The position numbers were made by a program, and so were the translations under genes. 63,680 nt of DNA from Candidatus Aenigmatarchaeota archaeon (GTDB lineage: Archaea; Aenigmatarchaeota; Aenigmatarchaeia; CG10238-14; SCSR01): assembly GCA_016187385.1 (NCBI GenBank), contig JACPJU010000002.1, positions 1 through 63,680 on the forward strand, in the 5' to 3' direction. The notes below the pieces were generated by a model. That model was given only the letters and a program-made list of their open reading frames with translations. It ran no database searches and was not told the DNA's origin. Shown here one piece after another: positions 17,134 through 30,483 of the stretch (the stretch's first letter is position 1; the number at the start of each line of letters is the position of its first letter).

Positions 17134-17232
17134 CGCTGGAGGCGAGATTTGAACTCGCAAGAGCTTGCGCTCGCAAGCTTTCCAGGCATACACTCAGAAG
17201 ATTTGTGCCATACCAGGTTAGGCGACTCCAGC
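17134..17232 (-). tRNA. tRNA-Ser(GGA) with a 15-nt intron at position 29/30
   Basis: On the minus strand the acceptor GCTGGAG pairs with CTCCAGC and the discriminator is G, as for serine. The D-arm is GCC/GGC, the T-arm GCGAG-TTCAAAT-CTCGC, and the long variable arm folds as GAGC-GCAA-GCTC (type II). After removing the 15 nt at 17188-17202 the anticodon stem is CAAGC/GCTTG and the loop CTGGAAA, giving anticodon GGA. The mature RNA would be 84 nt without CCA. CCA is not encoded. Confidence 0.9.
17188..17202 (-). other. Non-canonical intron in the anticodon stem of tRNA-Ser
   Basis: The minus-strand sequence ATCTTCTGAGTGTAT interrupts the 5' strand of the anticodon stem between positions 29 and 30. 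It fits a bulge-helix-bulge: a central helix GCAC/GTGT (one G-U pair), 3-nt bulges AAA and ATG, and cuts after the second base of each bulge. Splicing by the archaeal tRNA endonuclease is inferred from this fold. Confidence 0.85.
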
Positions 17233-21494: not shown

Positions 21495-22400
21495 ATGTTT
21501 ACGCAAGAAGAGTTGGAAAATATTATCATTGATGGTTCTGTTGAGGTATATAACGACCATAAAAAACTTGGTAGGAAGGGGCTAGAAGAACGTGGGAAGA
21601 ATCGGTTTGGAGAAACTTCTTTAGTTGGAGACTACCGAGCAGAGGATGTCTGGATAAATAATTTAGAAGAACACAATGTCAAAGCCATGATAATCTCTGA
21701 AGAACATGGAAGGATTGAACTGGGTAATGAATTTACAAGCCATGTTGATGGGTTGGACGGTAGTAAAAATCGTTATCCGATTTTCATGTCAGGCGACAAG
21801 AATGCTAGATACGCAACGATATTTTCAATATATGATGGCAATGATCCTCGCTATGAAGATTATAGAGTGAGTGCGATAATCGAACATCCCACAGGAAGGA
21901 TATTGCTTGCATCCAAAAACAGAGGTATATTTCTTATTGATCCTTTAACAAGAGAAAGAAGTCTCGTTAATGTTCCTTTCACCGGTGAATTTGTTACAGA
22001 AAAAATCCGTGGCAATACACACGCAGGAACAAAATTTTTCAATTCTACCATACGGCCCTATCTTGAAGCATTCCCTGCACTTGATTTGCAATCGGACAAA
22101 GTGGCGCTAAGGGCTAATTCAATATATTACGTTGATTTCGCATTGGGAAAAGCAGACTGGGTACTAGACTCGACTTTCAAGAACAATCTGGAAAAGGCTG
22201 TGGCATATCCTTTTGTCAAGGAAAGGGGTGGTGTAATGGTATCGCTAGATGGAAAAGACATCGGACCACAGAAATATTTTGAGTTTCATTTTGATTCTGA
22301 AGATTATGTTCCAATAATTGCTGCGCCAAGCATCGAGTCTGCGAAGCCAATTTTAGAAAAGATAAGGAAATATTATAGCAGTAATGATTTATTTTCTTAA
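21495..22400 (+). CDS. Inositol-monophosphatase-like phosphatase, copy 2
   Basis: 301 residues from the ATG at 21495 (a TTG two codons upstream is possible). It shares the start (MFTQEELE), IISEEHGRIELGNEF and the C-terminal GGVMVSLDGKDIG with copy 1, so it is a tandem duplicate. The metal motif reads VDGLDGSKNR, with Ser for Thr. The last 4 nt overlap the convergent homing endonuclease gene. Divergence of the two copies suggests different substrates or a heteromer. Confidence 0.72.
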   Translation: MFTQEELENIIIDGSVEVYNDHKKLGRKGLEERGKNRFGETSLVGDYRAEDVWINNLEEHNVKAMIISEEHGRIELGNEFTSHVDGLDGSKNRYPIFMSGDKNARYATIFSIYDGNDPRYEDYRVSAIIEHPTGRILLASKNRGIFLIDPLTRERSLVNVPFTGEFVTEKIRGNTHAGTKFFNSTIRPYLEAFPALDLQSDKVALRANSIYYVDFALGKADWVLDSTFKNNLEKAVAYPFVKERGGVMVSLDGKDIGPQKYFEFHFDSEDYVPIIAAPSIESAKPILEKIRKYYSSNDLFS

Positions 22401-23065
22401 TTAGTATTTTTGTCTATGAACTGCAGTAACTTTTCTTTTTTATAAAACATTACCATTTGTGGAATTACATATTTCAGAAGAAAATGATGTACCCTCTTAG
22501 AAACGTAAAACTCTAGTGTTACCCATCTTGTATCATAAAATTTACCTTTAATGAATTTCTTTCCACATCTTCTTGTTTGCAATATTTTTATATCCAACGA
22601 ACTTTCAAGTTGTTTTTGTAGGAAATCTTGTACTAGTCCGCTTGTTATTCTGATTACACATTGTGGGTATTTTGGACGCTTTACCCGAATATCTCCATCA
22701 CCGTCTATCAAACCCGCCAAATAAGCCCCAAAATACTTAGGTTCTTGAACAGTCCAGATTGGTGGTAGATACACGGGTGATATTATGATTCCTAAAGTAC
22801 GCAATAATTTCATTGACGATTTCATACCTACATAATATTGCCAACCTGATTTGCACTTCCATATTTTGCTTTTTCTATGAAGTATCTTATCAGAAATACT
22901 TCTGAACTTAGTTAACATCGGTAATGATTTTTCGGATATACCAAAACTTAATCCGACACGTTCTTCACATTTCCAGTGATAACGTTTCAAATATCCGTCA
23001 CTTTGAGCTACACCTACCCAGTATGCTAATTCCTCTGATGGTTCTACCATTATTTCTTTCTCCAT
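22397..23065 (-). CDS. LAGLIDADG homing endonuclease, free-standing
   Basis: 222 residues with two LAGLIDADG helices: ELAYWVGVAQSDGYL (about 12-26) and FGAYLAGLIDGDGDI (about 112-126), the layout of a monomeric double-motif enzyme. It has no intein splice residues and is not inside a host gene. It lies 144 nt from the intron-containing tRNA-Gly. Family members cut long DNA sites and mobilise introns or inteins. Start at 23065, with a second ATG at 23050. Confidence 0.8.
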   Translation of the reverse strand: MEKEIMVEPSEELAYWVGVAQSDGYLKRYHWKCEERVGLSFGISEKSLPMLTKFRSISDKILHRKSKIWKCKSGWQYYVGMKSSMKLLRTLGIIISPVYLPPIWTVQEPKYFGAYLAGLIDGDGDIRVKRPKYPQCVIRITSGLVQDFLQKQLESSLDIKILQTRRCGKKFIKGKFYDTRWVTLEFYVSKRVHHFLLKYVIPQMVMFYKKEKLLQFIDKNTN

Positions 23066-23228
23066 TTTATCACGAAATTAATTTATAGAAGTGTATATAC
23101 CCATTTTTAGGAGGGGTTCATTTCCCACATCTTTTGATGAGAAGACAATATAGAGTTTCTTTTGGCGAGTAAAAGGAAAATAAGTCTGATTTGTGGATAA
23201 ATAAGAAATGCGCCGATCGGGATTTGAA

Positions 23229-23259
23229 TTCTCGGATGCGAGTAATCAGCTCAACATCT
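23229..23259 (-). other. Second intron of tRNA-Gly (T-arm, 53/54)
   Basis: 31 nt. The junction folds as a bulge-helix-bulge: central helix CTCG/CGAG, 3-nt bulges GGA and AAT with cuts after the second base, inner helix GATG/CATC, followed by GAG/CTC. The predicted cuts restore a perfect 5-bp T-stem and a canonical TTCAAAT loop. Confidence 0.83.
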
Positions 23260-23282
23260 CCCGAGCGACGAGCTTGGAAGGC

Positions 23283-23297
23283 TTACACCTTAATAGT
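23283..23297 (-). other. First intron of tRNA-Gly (anticodon stem, 29/30)
   Basis: Minus-strand ACTATTAAGGTGTAA, 15 nt. A bulge-helix-bulge forms: outer GG/CC, central helix ACAC/GTGT, 3-nt bulges GAA and AAG cut after their second base, inner CT/AG. Same length and position as the tRNA-Ser intron. Confidence 0.85.
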
Positions 23298-23361
23298 TCG
23301 TGTCCTACCAGGCTAGACCATCGGCGCATAGTTAATTAATATATGCACGATATTTTAAATT

Positions 23362-24539: not shown

Positions 24540-25913
24540 TTAAATACCAAGTTCTAGGTCAAGTTTTCTGAAATATTCCTCTATTTCTTCTTCGTACGTT
24601 TCAAATGGATCTATCATAGTCGGGGCTGATGTTTTCAGAGGTTTTCCCCACTCTACAGAAGGAAAACTATTCCACATATGCGACATAGTGTGATTTGTCA
24701 ACAAATCTTTGCCACGTTCTTTCATTTTCTTTATAATTAGTGACCTTCCTTTAGCACGTGTATTTGGTGGAGTAGTCATAGCTTTTTCTATATCAACATC
24801 GCTTAAAAGCCGTCTAACAAAATCTTTATTTTGCAGCATATAGAACAAACTTTTTTCACCAATTTCATGATATTTCAAATCCAACATCGAAACTAACGGA
24901 TCTTCGATAGACAAATTTTTCTGTTTCATTTTTGCGTCCAACATTTTCAATTCTATTACCCAGTCCAATTGATCTGAAAGAATCATAGGATTTTTTTCCA
25001 GAGCACCTAGCGTCTTTTCCCATAATTTCAATATATCTGAATTCATGCCATGAAGATATTGACAATCGTTTTCACATCCGCTGGAAAAATGTTTTTGGGC
25101 TTTGGATAGATATTCACGCTGCAAATCTATTGCAGAAATAGTTTTTCCATTTTTAAGCTTTATAGGCCATACAGAATAAAGTCGGGATAACGTATGCAAT
25201 GTCTCTACTGGATTTTCTATTTCCAAGTCAACTAACCCGTCATCTACCAAATCGAGCATTAATGACGTCGCACCAATTTTGAGAAATGTAGAGTATTCTG
25301 ACATATTAGGGTCACCCACTATCAAATGAAGTCTTCTATATTTCGCAGTATCGGCATGTGGTTCGTCACGTGTATTATATATGGCTCTTTGTCCAGCTAC
25401 GTTTGTTGTAGGACCTGATTCATGGTATATATGCATAGCCCTACCTGAGAGCATGAATTCTTTATCAACAAATCCAGAACCCGCATAGATTACACGTGTT
25501 ACAAGAAAGGGAATCATTTGACTAGTCAAATATTCTAGAGGTATTTTTCTATCTACCAAATAATTTTCATGATAACCATGTGTATGTTCTTTTTTGTCAA
25601 CAGCGGTTCTATACAATTTGGCTGAACCTTTGACACCATCAATATCAAAACCATGTTTAAATATTTCTTCAAGAATACGTTCGCCTGCCTTTTCATAAAG
25701 TACAACCTCCAACGGCGTTAGACATTCGGGTGTACTATACTCTGGATGGTCGCCAGCATCTTTGTACAAGCGACCACCATTTAAGAGAGCTGGTGCGTGA
25801 TTAACTATATCCCCAACTTTCGACATAAAGTCACTAATAGTAAGATGCTTCGGTACAAGTTCCCATGAGAACATCCCATATTCCAATTCAGTGCCGTAAA
25901 TTCGACGATGCAC
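24540..25913 (-). CDS. pafA: Pup-protein ligase PafA
   Basis: 457 residues. It would couple the C-terminal glutamate of Pup to substrate lysines with ATP. It aligns with bacterial PafA throughout: RRIYGTELEYGMF (Mg-ATP Glu), GGRLYKDAGDHPEYSTPEC (catalytic Asp), GYHENYL, YNTRDEPHADTAKYRRLHLIVGD and STFLKIGATSLMLDLVDDG. It lacks the Dop-specific WDYxxExPLxDAR loop, which separates it from dop. GTG start, 4 nt after the prcA stop. Confidence 0.93.
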   Translation of the reverse strand: MHRRIYGTELEYGMFSWELVPKHLTISDFMSKVGDIVNHAPALLNGGRLYKDAGDHPEYSTPECLTPLEVVLYEKAGERILEEIFKHGFDIDGVKGSAKLYRTAVDKKEHTHGYHENYLVDRKIPLEYLTSQMIPFLVTRVIYAGSGFVDKEFMLSGRAMHIYHESGPTTNVAGQRAIYNTRDEPHADTAKYRRLHLIVGDPNMSEYSTFLKIGATSLMLDLVDDGLVDLEIENPVETLHTLSRLYSVWPIKLKNGKTISAIDLQREYLSKAQKHFSSGCENDCQYLHGMNSDILKLWEKTLGALEKNPMILSDQLDWVIELKMLDAKMKQKNLSIEDPLVSMLDLKYHEIGEKSLFYMLQNKDFVRRLLSDVDIEKAMTTPPNTRAKGRSLIIKKMKERGKDLLTNHTMSHMWNSFPSVEWGKPLKTSAPTMIDPFETYEEEIEEYFRKLDLELGI

Positions 25914-25917
25914 ATTA

Positions 25918-26679
25918 TCAGCTTTTCAAATAATCATAAAATCTTTTCATTTCGTCTTCATTCAAACGCCGCAAATCTCTTCTTCCTTCAAGAATTCCAA
26001 CATGTAAGACTTCGTCCTCAGAATCATTTAAAAATCCGTCTCTTATGCCGTATACATCACCCAAAGCGTCGATTGAAAACTTGACCGCGCCATCTAAACT
26101 CATTGAACAAAAATCAGGATTTCTGCTTTCTATGTATTCTTCTATTTTAAATTTGATGCCTTTTTTATATACCTTCCCTTCAGGTGAAGTCTCATTTTCG
26201 GAGCCTCCGCAGACTATAAAGTTTTTTCGTGAGGATGGCCAGCCTCTAAAATCTATTCTGTAAAATTTATTGTTTTGGCCCGTATCCGATTCTACAAGAA
26301 CCGTATCAACTTGAAAAGGCATGCTCCAGAGGGTTTCGTAAGTACCCCCGATAAAGTCAATAATGCTCTCTTCACCGTCCAGAAAACTTTGGACTGACCT
26401 GTTGTTATCTTTTGCTATGCCTATCTTCTTTGTAAGATTTTTTACATAACTTCTTATTTTTCTGATGTGGTGATAATTCCCAACGGCTGCAAATGCTATG
26501 CCACTTGTAATAGGTGAAATTTTCTCGATTATGGAAGTACTTTTCGTTACCAAAACTGTTCCGTCACAATAAGTCATTGCTAATATCGGAAATCCTTGAT
26601 TTACTATTTCTTGCGCATAATTGTCTCTCCTGCTCATTTCCGTTGTCAGTGAGAAATATCCACTGTAGACATTGTCCAT
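25918..26679 (-). CDS. prcA: Proteasome alpha subunit, bacterial PrcA type
   Basis: 253 residues. The N terminus (YFSLTTEMSRRDNYAQEIVNQG) matches the gate helix of alpha subunits. ILAMTYCDGTVLVT and GIAFAAVGNYHHIRKIR follow PrcA order, then YRIDFRG and FIVCGG. No threonine stands at the beta-subunit nucleophile position, so this is a non-catalytic alpha ring protein. No prcB lies between pup and prcA, where bacteria carry it. The catalytic ring must come from elsewhere in the genome. Confidence 0.85.
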   Translation of the reverse strand: MDNVYSGYFSLTTEMSRRDNYAQEIVNQGFPILAMTYCDGTVLVTKSTSIIEKISPITSGIAFAAVGNYHHIRKIRSYVKNLTKKIGIAKDNNRSVQSFLDGEESIIDFIGGTYETLWSMPFQVDTVLVESDTGQNNKFYRIDFRGWPSSRKNFIVCGGSENETSPEGKVYKKGIKFKIEEYIESRNPDFCSMSLDGAVKFSIDALGDVYGIRDGFLNDSEDEVLHVGILEGRRDLRRLNEDEMKRFYDYLKS

Positions 26680-26693
26680 GTAATCACATTGAT

Positions 26694-26972
26694 TTATTGA
26701 CCGCCCAATTGCACATACTGTTCTGCTTGTTCCTCGTCTGCTATGAGTTCGTCTATCTCGTCCAAAATTTCGTCGTACTCACTTGTGTCTGTATCAACTT
26801 CTGCGTCTAACTTAACTTCCTTTTCTAGTTCGTAGCTTCCTTTAGACGTAGTTTGCCCAGAATAACCGGTTTGTCTTTTCTGTTCATTAACTACCCTTGA
26901 TGTGCTTACGCCGTAGACGCTTAAAGGTATTAACTCTCCTATTTCTAATACACTCCTTCTATATGATCTCAT
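26694..26972 (-). CDS. pup: Prokaryotic ubiquitin-like protein Pup
   Basis: 92 residues. The C-terminal third (EYDEILDEIDELIADEEQ, then AEQYVQLGGQ) matches the Pup signature, including the acidic ATPase-binding helix and the Gly-Gly-Gln end that Dop deamidates. The N-terminal part is longer than in most bacterial Pups (60-70 residues) and begins with MRSYRRSVLEIGELIPLSVY. The ATG overlaps the dop stop by 4 nt (ATGA), and prcA starts 14 nt after the stop. Confidence 0.93.
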   Translation of the reverse strand: MRSYRRSVLEIGELIPLSVYGVSTSRVVNEQKRQTGYSGQTTSKGSYELEKEVKLDAEVDTDTSEYDEILDEIDELIADEEQAEQYVQLGGQ

Positions 26973-28690
26973 GCTGTCACCTCCAATTTATCTACTAAAT
27001 CGCTAATTGTTCCTGCGTTATCAAAAATATCCTGCGTTAATTTTTTTGTTCCCCTGAAAGGTTCAAGTTTAATTTCGTCCCTATGCCTGCCGTTTCTGAC
27101 ATTTACAACATCCCAGTTGGAACTTATAACATGGTGTGGGAATCTTCTTAGGCATTCGCCTCTGAAATAAGCACGTGTATCTTCTGGCGGATTAGTCATG
27201 GCATATTTTATGTCATCCTCTGAAATTCCAAGGGTATCAACGCGCCCTCTACTTTGATATTTGTGAAATATACCTTCATCTGGATCTATGTTATGATACC
27301 TCATATCTAGTTTGAGGACTTCAGGTGAGGCTAAACTCCAGTTGTGCTTTTTCATCATACCATCTAGCATTTGCTTTTTTATTGCATGATCAAGTTTGGT
27401 CGACAGGTCGGGAAAATCTTGCCTTTTTAATGCATCCAGCACGTATTCCCATCTCCCGATTATTTCGTCACTAGCGGGGTCTGAAGAATAATGTTGTTTA
27501 GCTTTATTGAGATAGAGTTCCTGCACATCAATAGCGGTGCCCTGGCTCCCATCGAGGAAAGTTACATTCCACTTCCATTCTTGGTCTCGTGATATAGAGT
27601 GGAATGCGTCCACGGGATTTTGAATCACAACCTCTTCACCAATGAGTCCGTCTTCAATCAAATCTAAAACTAATTTGGTAGTGCCTGTTTTAAGATAAGT
27701 CGACCAAGGTGCGAGATTTGAATCACCGACTATGACATGAAATCTTCTGTATTTGGACGGATCTGCATGCGGTTCATCCCTTAAGTTTATTAGAGGTCTT
27801 TTAGCTGTCGTTTGTTGGCCTTCCTCGCAAACAAAGAAATCAGCCCGTTGGGATAATTGATAGATTGCTGGAATATCTTTTCTTCCCTTCTCTAAAAATT
27901 CTAAGACATGATAATAAGCAGAACGCGAATCTTCTAAAATGTCTTCCAAACTCTCTTCTTTCGCCTTCTTTTCTAAATTATGGAAAATTGAGTAAAGATT
28001 CCCGTACATATCATTATGCTCGCCTGATAAACCTACTATCTCGAAAAAGACACCTGCTTGCTGAAACTCGCTGAGTATCCATCTTTTAAGTTCTTGATAA
28101 GGATGATATAGTCTTCGTTCGGGGTAAGAATCCGTATGCAAACCCACTTTTCCAGCACCTGTGAAGATCTGTCGGGTAACAAAAAATGGTATCATCAACT
28201 CTCTAATTTTATTCCAAGGTGTTCTTCTTTCAATCAAATAATTCTCATGACAACCAAATGACTTACCTCTGCTGTCGAAATTATTTTTATAAATCACAAT
28301 GGAATCTTTAGCAGTTCTTCTATCGTTTTGCAAATATGCGTTCGCTAACATTCTCGCATGATTCAAGATTCTTTCACCTGCCTTGTCGTGTATAACCAAC
28401 TGAAGAGGCGAGGTGCATTCAGGTGTCGAATATTCAGGATGACCATGATCGTCATAGAATCTGGCTCCGTTTGTGAGTATTCTATTGTTTATATGCCTTG
28501 CATCTCCAAGAGGTAATTCTTGCTCAGCGTTGTAATCCCACTTTGCAAGAGCAGAATCATAACTACCTATAACAAAATCTGTGTCACTGATATGATTTTG
28601 ATCTCGTTCGTCATAAATACTTTTTTTTTCAGCAGAACGTCTAGAAATCCCGTACTCTGTTTCTATCCCCATCACTCTGTCTATTGCCAT
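26969..28690 (-). CDS. dop: Pup deamidase/depupylase Dop
   Basis: 573 residues from the ATG at 28690 (a TTG at 28702 would overlap the ATPase stop). It shares IETEYGIS, NGARFYDDHGHPEYSTPEC, LRDEPHADPSKYRRFHVIVGD and NPPEDTRAYFRGECLRRF with actinobacterial Dop. The Dop-specific KWDYNAEQELPLGDAR segment is present, with a shorter loop. About 90 extra residues (about 185-276) are inserted after GAGKVGL and before YQLSQRADF; no match to them was recognised. Expected roles: Gln-to-Glu deamidation of Pup and removal of Pup from substrates. Confidence 0.92.
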   Translation of the reverse strand: MAIDRVMGIETEYGISRRSAEKKSIYDERDQNHISDTDFVIGSYDSALAKWDYNAEQELPLGDARHINNRILTNGARFYDDHGHPEYSTPECTSPLQLVIHDKAGERILNHARMLANAYLQNDRRTAKDSIVIYKNNFDSRGKSFGCHENYLIERRTPWNKIRELMIPFFVTRQIFTGAGKVGLHTDSYPERRLYHPYQELKRWILSEFQQAGVFFEIVGLSGEHNDMYGNLYSIFHNLEKKAKEESLEDILEDSRSAYYHVLEFLEKGRKDIPAIYQLSQRADFFVCEEGQQTTAKRPLINLRDEPHADPSKYRRFHVIVGDSNLAPWSTYLKTGTTKLVLDLIEDGLIGEEVVIQNPVDAFHSISRDQEWKWNVTFLDGSQGTAIDVQELYLNKAKQHYSSDPASDEIIGRWEYVLDALKRQDFPDLSTKLDHAIKKQMLDGMMKKHNWSLASPEVLKLDMRYHNIDPDEGIFHKYQSRGRVDTLGISEDDIKYAMTNPPEDTRAYFRGECLRRFPHHVISSNWDVVNVRNGRHRDEIKLEPFRGTKKLTQDIFDNAGTISDLVDKLEVTA

Positions 28691-28698
28691 AAATATAA

Positions 28699-30483
28699 TC
28701 AAACAGACAATCTACGATAGGGACGATCTGATGGTCTTTGACTGGTGGAATATTTTTCAGTTGGTGTTATACGCACTATGAGATCGCCCTCCTTACCTAA
28801 AATCTGTGACCACTTTTGTGGCAGCCCACTTAGCAAGATGTCAACTTCTTCTGAGTAGGAGTCATTAATACCTCTGACAAAATCATCGTATCGAAGACCA
28901 TGTTCTTCACCGTGAATTTTTCTTTTAATCGCATAAACCTTTGCACGATTAACAATGCTGTATATCTTGGAACCGCTTATCAAATCCCTGTGGAATAATT
29001 CCTTCTTTCTTCCATCCCTGTATTCTACAATAGCTAAAGGTTCCGAATCTTTAAACAAATGCTCAACAAGGTGATTTACTGCATATTCATGCCAATGTCC
29101 ATTCGAACCCAAAAGCTTTAACTCACTTTCTGCTACAGGCAGTCCATCTGGAATATATACAGAAAATATGCTTCTTGCACCATCCTCATTTGGTCTTGGT
29201 ATTTCTACCTTCTTGTCGATTCTCCCTTCTCTAAGCACGGCTGGATCTATTCTGTCTGGTCTATTGGTAGCGAGAATAGTTATTACAATGTTGCTTTTTT
29301 CTCTTGCTCTCGAATATATGTCACGCAACATTTGTTCGGATTCTCCAACCCATTTACTTAGTATCTCTGGTCCAGAAACATTGTAGAAGAATGGTCTGGT
29401 ATTATTCCCGTTAGTGTATTCGATGTTTTTGTATAATCTGTTTAGCTCTTCAACACCGTCTAATATAGCTAAAGCTTGAGGAACAATAGTATCGCTCATT
29501 GTGCTTCCGCCACCTCCTTCTACATGCACACCTGTCCCACGGACACCAAACAGAGAATCTGCCTCATCGAAAAATACGACTACTGGTGGTGGCCTGCCAT
29601 CTTTTCTCAACGAAAACAGTTCATTTACCAATGCCTTTATGCATAGGGTTTTGCCGCAACCTGGCGGTCCGTGTAAAAGAACGCCTTTTGTTGGCGTGAG
29701 ATTGTATTCACTGTAGACATCAGGATAAAGATAGGGTAGTTCAATTAGCTCTTTTAGCTGTTCTGTTTCTTTTTCCAAGCCTCCGATGCTATCCCATGTG
29801 ATGTTAGGAACATCTTCCAAATACAGTTCCTTTCTATCTTCTCGTGGAAGAACTTCAGTAGCAAATATTCCAGTTCTGTCCAATAAAATTGTATCTCCCA
29901 CTTTTGCTTCGGACTTTCCTACATAATAAACAACCTGTTCTCCATTTCCCAAAAAATTAGAAACCATCAAACGATTTCCTTGAACATCCTTCACTCTAGC
30001 TGACATACCTGTCTCTGGATAGCCGTACACACGCATCAATGCTCCTGTTTTCGGATCTAAAAGAACTTCTCTGCCACTTACCAACTCATCTTTATTCAAA
30101 GAAGGATTAATAGCAACCTGAAGCTGTTCATTTGAACCATAAATGGATACGTGAGCCTCGTCATTATCATACCCGAGCAAAATGCCGCGCCGCAATGGTG
30201 TAGAGTCAAGTTTCTGCAGAAAATCGTAAAGAACTTTTAATGTTTTCTTATCCTCTTTCGCCTGTTGAAAGAGTTCTCTGTGTTTCACTAATTGATTTTT
30301 CATTCTTTGATTGCGGGCGAGTGTCTCATCATAAAAGTTTAATAATGCACGTAAAGTATCGATGAATCCTGTATATTCATGTTTTCCAAGACCATCTACA
30401 TTGGTTACTCTCTGAAGCTGTTTCCTTACACTCCCCAACTTTATAGGGGGGTTGTATGCTGGTTCTCCGTCAACCTTTGTCAT
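28699..30483 (-). CDS. arc: Proteasomal AAA+ ATPase ARC/Mpa-like, permuted AAA module
   Basis: 594 residues. N-terminal coiled coil (about 40-95), OB-fold region (about 97-215), AAA module (about 230-430) and a C-terminal part like Mpa (YRDGRKKELFHRDLISGSKIYSIVNRAK ... KEGDLIVRI). Walker A is GPPGCGKT (272-279). Walker B (VVVFFDEAD, 301-309) comes next, and only then the beta2/pore-loop block (FFYNVSGPEIL and KWVGESE, 365-383), then sensor 1 (ILATN, 403-407). Standard AAA+ order is beta2/pore loop before Walker B. The C terminus lacks the Mpa-type GQYL tail. Confidence 0.9.
   Translation of the reverse strand: MTKVDGEPAYNPPIKLGSVRKQLQRVTNVDGLGKHEYTGFIDTLRALLNFYDETLARNQRMKNQLVKHRELFQQAKEDKKTLKVLYDFLQKLDSTPLRRGILLGYDNDEAHVSIYGSNEQLQVAINPSLNKDELVSGREVLLDPKTGALMRVYGYPETGMSARVKDVQGNRLMVSNFLGNGEQVVYYVGKSEAKVGDTILLDRTGIFATEVLPREDRKELYLEDVPNITWDSIGGLEKETEQLKELIELPYLYPDVYSEYNLTPTKGVLLHGPPGCGKTLCIKALVNELFSLRKDGRPPPVVVFFDEADSLFGVRGTGVHVEGGGGSTMSDTIVPQALAILDGVEELNRLYKNIEYTNGNNTRPFFYNVSGPEILSKWVGESEQMLRDIYSRAREKSNIVITILATNRPDRIDPAVLREGRIDKKVEIPRPNEDGARSIFSVYIPDGLPVAESELKLLGSNGHWHEYAVNHLVEHLFKDSEPLAIVEYRDGRKKELFHRDLISGSKIYSIVNRAKVYAIKRKIHGEEHGLRYDDFVRGINDSYSEEVDILLSGLPQKWSQILGKEGDLIVRITPTEKYSTSQRPSDRPYRRLSV

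Follow-up and report, generated by a model that had tools for sequence, protein, structure and literature searches.

T-arm introns in archaeal tRNA genes are known chiefly from the hyperthermophilic Thermoproteales, whose heterotetrameric endonuclease is of a special kind linked to such introns, and relaxed forms of the bulge-helix-bulge (BHB) motif also occur among archaeal tRNA introns. T-arm BHB introns have been reported for archaea in general (PMC12397907), and multiple-intron tRNA genes are prominent in the Thermoproteales (PMC4033280). The gene described here lies in a window of 63,680 nucleotides (the whole stretch of DNA analysed; contig JACPJU010000002.1 of assembly GCA_016187385.1) and resembles the described archaeal cases in its T-arm position, short introns, 4-bp central helix, 3-nt bulges and several introns per gene, but differs in that its T-arm motif lacks an outer helix and its host is a DPANN archaeon, Candidatus Aenigmatarchaeota. 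This host falls outside the order Thermoproteales, as the preliminary description had surmised from the gene set, and its genome encodes a short splicing endonuclease subunit similar to that of M. jannaschii, unlike the (alpha-beta)2 endonuclease reported for Crenarchaeota. ARMAN-1 and ARMAN-2 (Micrarchaeota) share with the window's genome a small DPANN-type genome and multiple-intron tRNAs; nevertheless, their tRNAs are cut by an epsilon2 endonuclease, whereas no three-unit epsilon2 enzyme was detected in the window's genome. A free-text literature search that covered subscription papers thinly returned no report of tRNA introns in Aenigmatarchaeota, and T-arm introns appear to be new for this lineage in the searchable literature.

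The precursor tRNA-Gly(UCC) gene spans 119 nt on the minus strand (23209..23327), with G1 at 23327, the discriminator A73 at 23209 and no encoded CCA. Its structure was sought with a parser of our own, which assembles a cloverleaf with at most one intron per arm, scores BHB geometry and was blind to the structure proposed in the preliminary description. The optimum parse reproduced that structure exactly, placing introns of 15 nt at 29/30 and of 31 nt at 53/54 (score 37.0; runners-up 31.9 and 31.5), although the strand has to be corrected to minus. The Rfam tRNA model places the same ends, and the spliced form is called tRNA-Gly(tcc) by ARAGORN and folds 3 s.d. better than shuffled sequences. 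Removal of both introns leaves perfect stems and a canonical tRNA-Gly, GCGCCGA TG GTCTAGCCTGGTAGGAC A CGAGCCTTCCAAGCTCG TCGC TCGGGTTCAAATCCCGA TCGGCGC A, in which all exon stems and invariant bases are intact. Dinucleotide-preserving shuffles of the region (n = 200, either strand) gave a top parser score of 20.65 versus 37.0 for the real sequence, and chance parses in non-tRNA stretches of related genomes stayed below 26 with the same parser.

Intron 1 (15 nt, ACTATTAAGGTGTAA; 23297-23283, minus strand) interrupts the anticodon stem at position 29/30 and has a central helix ACAC:GTGT with 4/4 pairs, an inner helix of 2 bp and an outer helix of 3 bp, while intron 2 (31 nt, AGATGTTGAGCTGATTACTCGCATCCGAGAA; 23259-23229, minus strand) sits in the T-arm at position 53/54 and has a central helix CTCG:CGAG, likewise with 4/4 pairs, an inner helix of 5 bp and an outer helix of one pair only. 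At both junctions, 3-nt bulges flank the 4-bp central helix and cuts are predicted after the second bulge base, which bears out the geometry first described. In neither intron are the bulges framed by the two stable helices that mark the strict hBHBh' motif; as read from the sequence, both motifs are relaxed BHB forms, that of intron 2 being so classed because its outer exon helix is essentially absent. When the intron letters were shuffled with the exons fixed, a 4/4 central helix arose in 0.36% of trials for intron 1 and in 1.6% for intron 2 (0.012% when the 5-bp inner helix was also counted), and both central helices together with both inner helices arose in 0 of 200,000 trials. It is highly improbable that the gene is real but has its 29/30 insert removed at a neighbouring register, or that it is processed as a split or permuted tRNA: a one-base shift to 30/31 and a D-arm alternative, formal possibilities that make up the second and third parses, were both rejected as scoring at least 5 points lower and either breaking the anticodon stem or lacking an inner helix, and the two halves of the tRNA follow each other in normal order on a single strand over 119 nt.

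Used alone, ARAGORN and Rfam both miss the gene, as had been anticipated for standard tRNA finders. ARAGORN reports 0 tRNA genes on the window and 0 on the unspliced precursor; presented with constructs, it calls tRNA-Gly(tcc) on the fully spliced sequence and on one that keeps intron 1 alone, and nothing once intron 2 is present. The Rfam tRNA model recovers the exact ends on a short stretch with permissive filters, at 20.5 bits against a gathering cut-off of 29, and loses the gene in scans of the window and of the genome. Being overlooked in this manner would also suit a decaying tRNA pseudogene that had received two random insertions, with GGA read by another tRNA; such decay is hardly credible, given the intact exons, the BHB motifs not reproduced by shuffled inserts, the apparent want of a substitute and the prevalence of GGA among glycine codons. 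A second intact tRNA-Gly(UCC), which the preliminary description regarded as counting against the gene, was found neither by BLAST nor by anticodon-loop pattern in the host genome (G000; 876 kb in 3 contigs, estimated to be 91% complete, so that another gene could be absent from the assembly), and the anticodon block GCCTTCCAAGC has a single match in the genome, namely the gene at 23209..23327. The remaining Gly tRNA genes read as GCC (L002) and CCC (L014), and GGA is the commonest glycine codon in the 51 long open reading frames (ORFs) of the window (37% of 1,050 Gly codons). Taken together, these observations imply that the window gene should be needed as the GGA reader, and it is probably essential.

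The reading favoured here, to which we assign a probability of roughly 0.93, is that of a functional, single-copy tRNA-Gly(UCC) whose two BHB introns, recent and turning over fast, would be spliced by the endonuclease and a ligase. Transcription, cleavage and ligation are predicted from the sequence on the strength of established archaeal biology. The transcript would fold locally into two BHB motifs; the tRNA-splicing endonuclease would free the 15-nt and 31-nt introns by cutting each 3-nt bulge after its second base; and the tRNA ligase would join the exons into a normal tRNA reading GGA (and GGG) codons. The T-arm intron would have to leave before the T-stem forms, since until then the 5' strand of that stem is paired with the 3' part of the intron, and introns at 53/54 would have arisen in many other tRNAs of the class. 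Against splicing stand the missing outer helix of the T-arm motif, euryarchaeal alpha4 and alpha2 endonucleases having been reported to cut canonical BHB motifs only (PMC4033280; PMC12397907), and the absence, from the sole endonuclease found, of the lysine without which the enzymes of ARMAN-2 (Lys282) and Archaeoglobus (Lys287) do not work (PMC12397907).

The preliminary description held that the splicing endonuclease must be of a type that accepts non-canonical motifs. A single M. jannaschii-like subunit was identified, the only PF01974 protein of the genome (EndA, 188 aa; C2:204832-205395, equivalent to L031:1474-2040, minus strand in L031), and it aligns over its full length to M. jannaschii EndA; no second subunit was found at E <= 1 or on searching the genome with the EndA protein itself. 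Unexpectedly, although Tyr115 and His125 (M. jannaschii numbering) of the Tyr-His-Lys triad are present, the position of Lys156 is occupied by Ala. This DPANN subfamily carries a KRGPK-like, Lys-rich insertion directly before the catalytic His, with Lys residues that are invariant in alignment A1; lying between the catalytic Tyr and His, the insertion is distinct from the Crenarchaea- or ARMAN-specific loop (CSL/ASL), a Lys-bearing loop of 11-18 residues close to the active site that serves relaxed substrates, and the loop after YGK in the host enzyme is about 4 residues longer than that of M. jannaschii and shorter than CSL/ASL. Of 29 class relatives of the same EndA type, nearly all have Ala at the Lys156 position and three have Ser or Thr, and a scan of named genomes, a biased sample in that it selects an EHTK-like motif, gave Ala, Ser or Thr in 80 of 82 sequences and Lys in the other 2 (Altiarchaeales and Hydrothermarchaeota), both of which are without the insertion. 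The nearest relatives in that scan are Ca. Aenigmatarchaeota MAGs, the best two at 86 and 84% identity. Within the class, the short, tandem and two-domain enzymes that bear the insertion have no catalytic Lys, and other families with a three-unit epsilon2 enzyme keep the triad intact. Given the essential lysines of ARMAN-2 and Archaeoglobus, the host EndA would either obtain its lysine from the insertion or follow an altered catalysis.

The genus also offers Gly(UCC) genes that lack one or both of these introns. In four congeners, Gly(UCC) lies near shared neighbours, namely homologues of the 17268 ORF, the 16163 dehydrogenase and/or the 23977 AAA_28 ATPase. The genes of G003 and G004 are intronless and contiguous over 73 nt, with few substitutions relative to the window's spliced product, and those of G001 and G002, read by hand, have introns at 29/30 (12 nt) and 37/38 (11-12 nt). 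The T-arm intron was found in the Gly(UCC) genes of none of the four (G001-G004) and thus sets the window's lineage apart within the sampled genus; judged by these loci, the 29/30 intron belongs to part of the genus and the T-arm intron, among sampled members, to the window's lineage only.

Introns are common in the host's tRNA genes at large, about 30 of 39 of which parse with introns. Eight of the 38 genes found by Rfam are contiguous, and the rest parse with at least one intron, in the D-arm, the anticodon arm or at the variable/T-stem boundary, with ambiguous assignments at seven loci (L020, L023, L026, L030, L033, L035 and L036). Within the window, tRNA-Ser(GGA) (17134-17232, minus strand) has a 15-nt BHB intron at 29/30, the site used by intron 1 of tRNA-Gly. 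Elsewhere in the genome, tRNA-Thr(GGU) (L026; C2:782163-782267, minus strand), read by hand, has two introns in one anticodon arm (17 nt at 29/30 and 15 nt at 40/41) and an odd T-loop, TGCAATT, and the parser places a 16-nt intron at 48/49, the variable-loop/T-stem boundary, in tRNA-Arg(UCG) (L025; C2:655687-655775, minus strand). The intron of tRNA-Trp (L020; C2:213347-213455, plus strand) contains CTGA and GATGATGG strings, which suggests a box C/D guide RNA of the kind that occurs in other archaeal tRNA-Trp introns. Initiator Met, Cys, Gln and some Leu and Arg tRNAs are not clearly among the Rfam matches of this genome, and T-arm introns may hide them.

The T-arm intron, presented at first as a feature of this one gene, is present as stated but is not peculiar to it. 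The class has at least nine tRNA species with 53/54 introns of this architecture, Gly(UCC), Glu(UUC), Glu(CUC) and Arg(GCG) being the first noticed, and ten further genomes of the class have introns at 59/60 in Gly(UCC). Since position 53 of tRNA is nearly always G, the string GAATTCRAATCYC is not expected in a normal tRNA; it is nevertheless present in 39 of 97 genomes, at 51 places in all, with roughly half a dozen occurrences of the reversed control. About 20 of 30 inspected places proved to be tRNAs with 53/54 introns, namely Leu(UAA), Leu(GAG), Pro(GGG), Pro(UGG), Phe, Lys, Arg(UCU), Arg(GCG), Glu(UUC), Glu(CUC), Gly(UCC) and His, with 4/4 central helices and inner helices of 4-8 bp; class-wide, 53/54 introns have 4-bp central helices and inner helices of 2-8 bp. 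The Glu(UUC) intron of G006 (AGATG-ATTAA-CATCCGGGAA) resembles intron 2 of the window (AGATG-n16-CATCCGAGAA), a likeness that hints at intron transposition between tRNAs, a shared 4-bp helix being a weak sign of it. On comparison of these sequences, the window gene is one case of a class-wide T-arm intron habit, and the BHB introns themselves are of a known kind.

Downstream of tRNA-Gly(UCC) by 143 bp, on the same strand, lies a LAGLIDADG-type ORF of 222 aa (22397-23065, minus strand) with two motifs, AYWVGVAQSDG and FGAYLAGLIDGDG, and with acidic residues D23, D121 and D123 that are invariant across ten homologues. Its Pfam matches to LAGLIDADG_1, LAGLIDADG_3 and Hom_end reach 16.3-17.6 bits, below the curated cut-offs of 21.1-23.1, and its PDB matches are weak; by its motifs, it is a candidate homing endonuclease. 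In size, its two LAGLIDADG-like motifs and invariant acidic residues, it resembles the monomeric two-motif endonucleases of the I-DmoI type, from which it differs in the weakness of those matches and in being free-standing beside tRNA or 5S genes rather than lodged in an rRNA intron. The family has 16 places in 12 genomes of the class (the window ORF, L271 and L272 among them), and in 15 of the 16 a tRNA or 5S gene lies no more than 260 bp away, two of these counting by probable tRNA calls. Besides the window ORF, the host genome has one homologue 7 bp from 5S (and 210 bp from Asp) and one 260 bp from Val. The nearest RNA genes elsewhere are a probable initiator Met in G001 (27 bp), 5S (10 bp) and His (14 bp) at two places in G002, His in G004 (14 bp) and G008 (11 bp; a fragment at a contig end), a probable Glu (59 bp) and a tRNA (3 bp) at two places in G012, two Pro genes in G015 (21 and 83 bp), tRNAs in G055 (5 bp), G059 (24 bp, with 5S at 50 bp) and G105 (0 bp), Val in G088 (23 bp) and 5S in G150 (575 bp; a weak homologue). 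Given some 45 RNA genes in 0.8 Mb, the estimated chance of such closeness is 2-4% per gene, so that the association stays strong when orthologous sites are counted only once. A free-text literature search with thin coverage of subscription papers returned no report of tRNA-adjacent LAGLIDADG genes in archaea.

As an addition to the splicing explanation rather than an alternative, the T-arm intron may have been brought in or kept by this neighbour through collaborative homing, in which intronless tRNA genes, cleaved by a free-standing homing endonuclease, are repaired by copying the intron-bearing gene. The family's closeness to tRNA and 5S genes accords with this proposal, as does the syntenic locus, at which, among five congeners, only G000 has both the LAGLIDADG gene and the T-arm intron; the proposal is nevertheless doubtful, as endonuclease gene and private T-arm intron coincide at the window locus only, a single case, and most T-arm introns of the class are in genomes in which no such endonuclease was found. 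A general link between LAGLIDADG genes and introns is ruled out by homologues beside two intronless His tRNA genes and beside 5S rRNA, and the family, on the genomic positions compared, is tied to RNA genes and not clearly to introns. We consider it unlikely, as a wider scheme, that the clade's catalytic lysine moved to the insertion by the catalytic His, permitting relaxed BHB motifs anywhere in the tRNA, and that the free-standing, tRNA/5S-linked LAGLIDADG family drives rapid intron gain and loss.

The same archaeal contig has a pupylation-like cluster (24540-30483 of the window, minus strand), which comprises an Mpa/ARC-like AAA ATPase (28699-30483), two Pup-ligase family proteins (26969-28702, E 7e-142; 24540-25913, E 5e-109), a Pup-like protein of 92 aa with a C-terminal GGQ (26694-26972) and, by our own reading of the sequence, a proteasome-subunit-like ORF (25918-26679). 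The abstracts returned by a literature search describe pupylation for bacteria and make no mention of it in DPANN archaea.

Of greater interest than this one gene are the pattern across the class and the endonuclease subfamily that lacks the catalytic lysine. With T-arm introns in many tRNAs and a short, single-type endonuclease of this lysine-free kind, the co-evolution of enzyme and intron becomes directly testable in this class, and the intronless syntenic orthologues within one genus provide a before-and-after series for tRNA intron gain. Lastly, DPANN tRNA sets are under-counted where T-arm introns conceal genes, which affects completeness estimates as well as claims of missing tRNAs.
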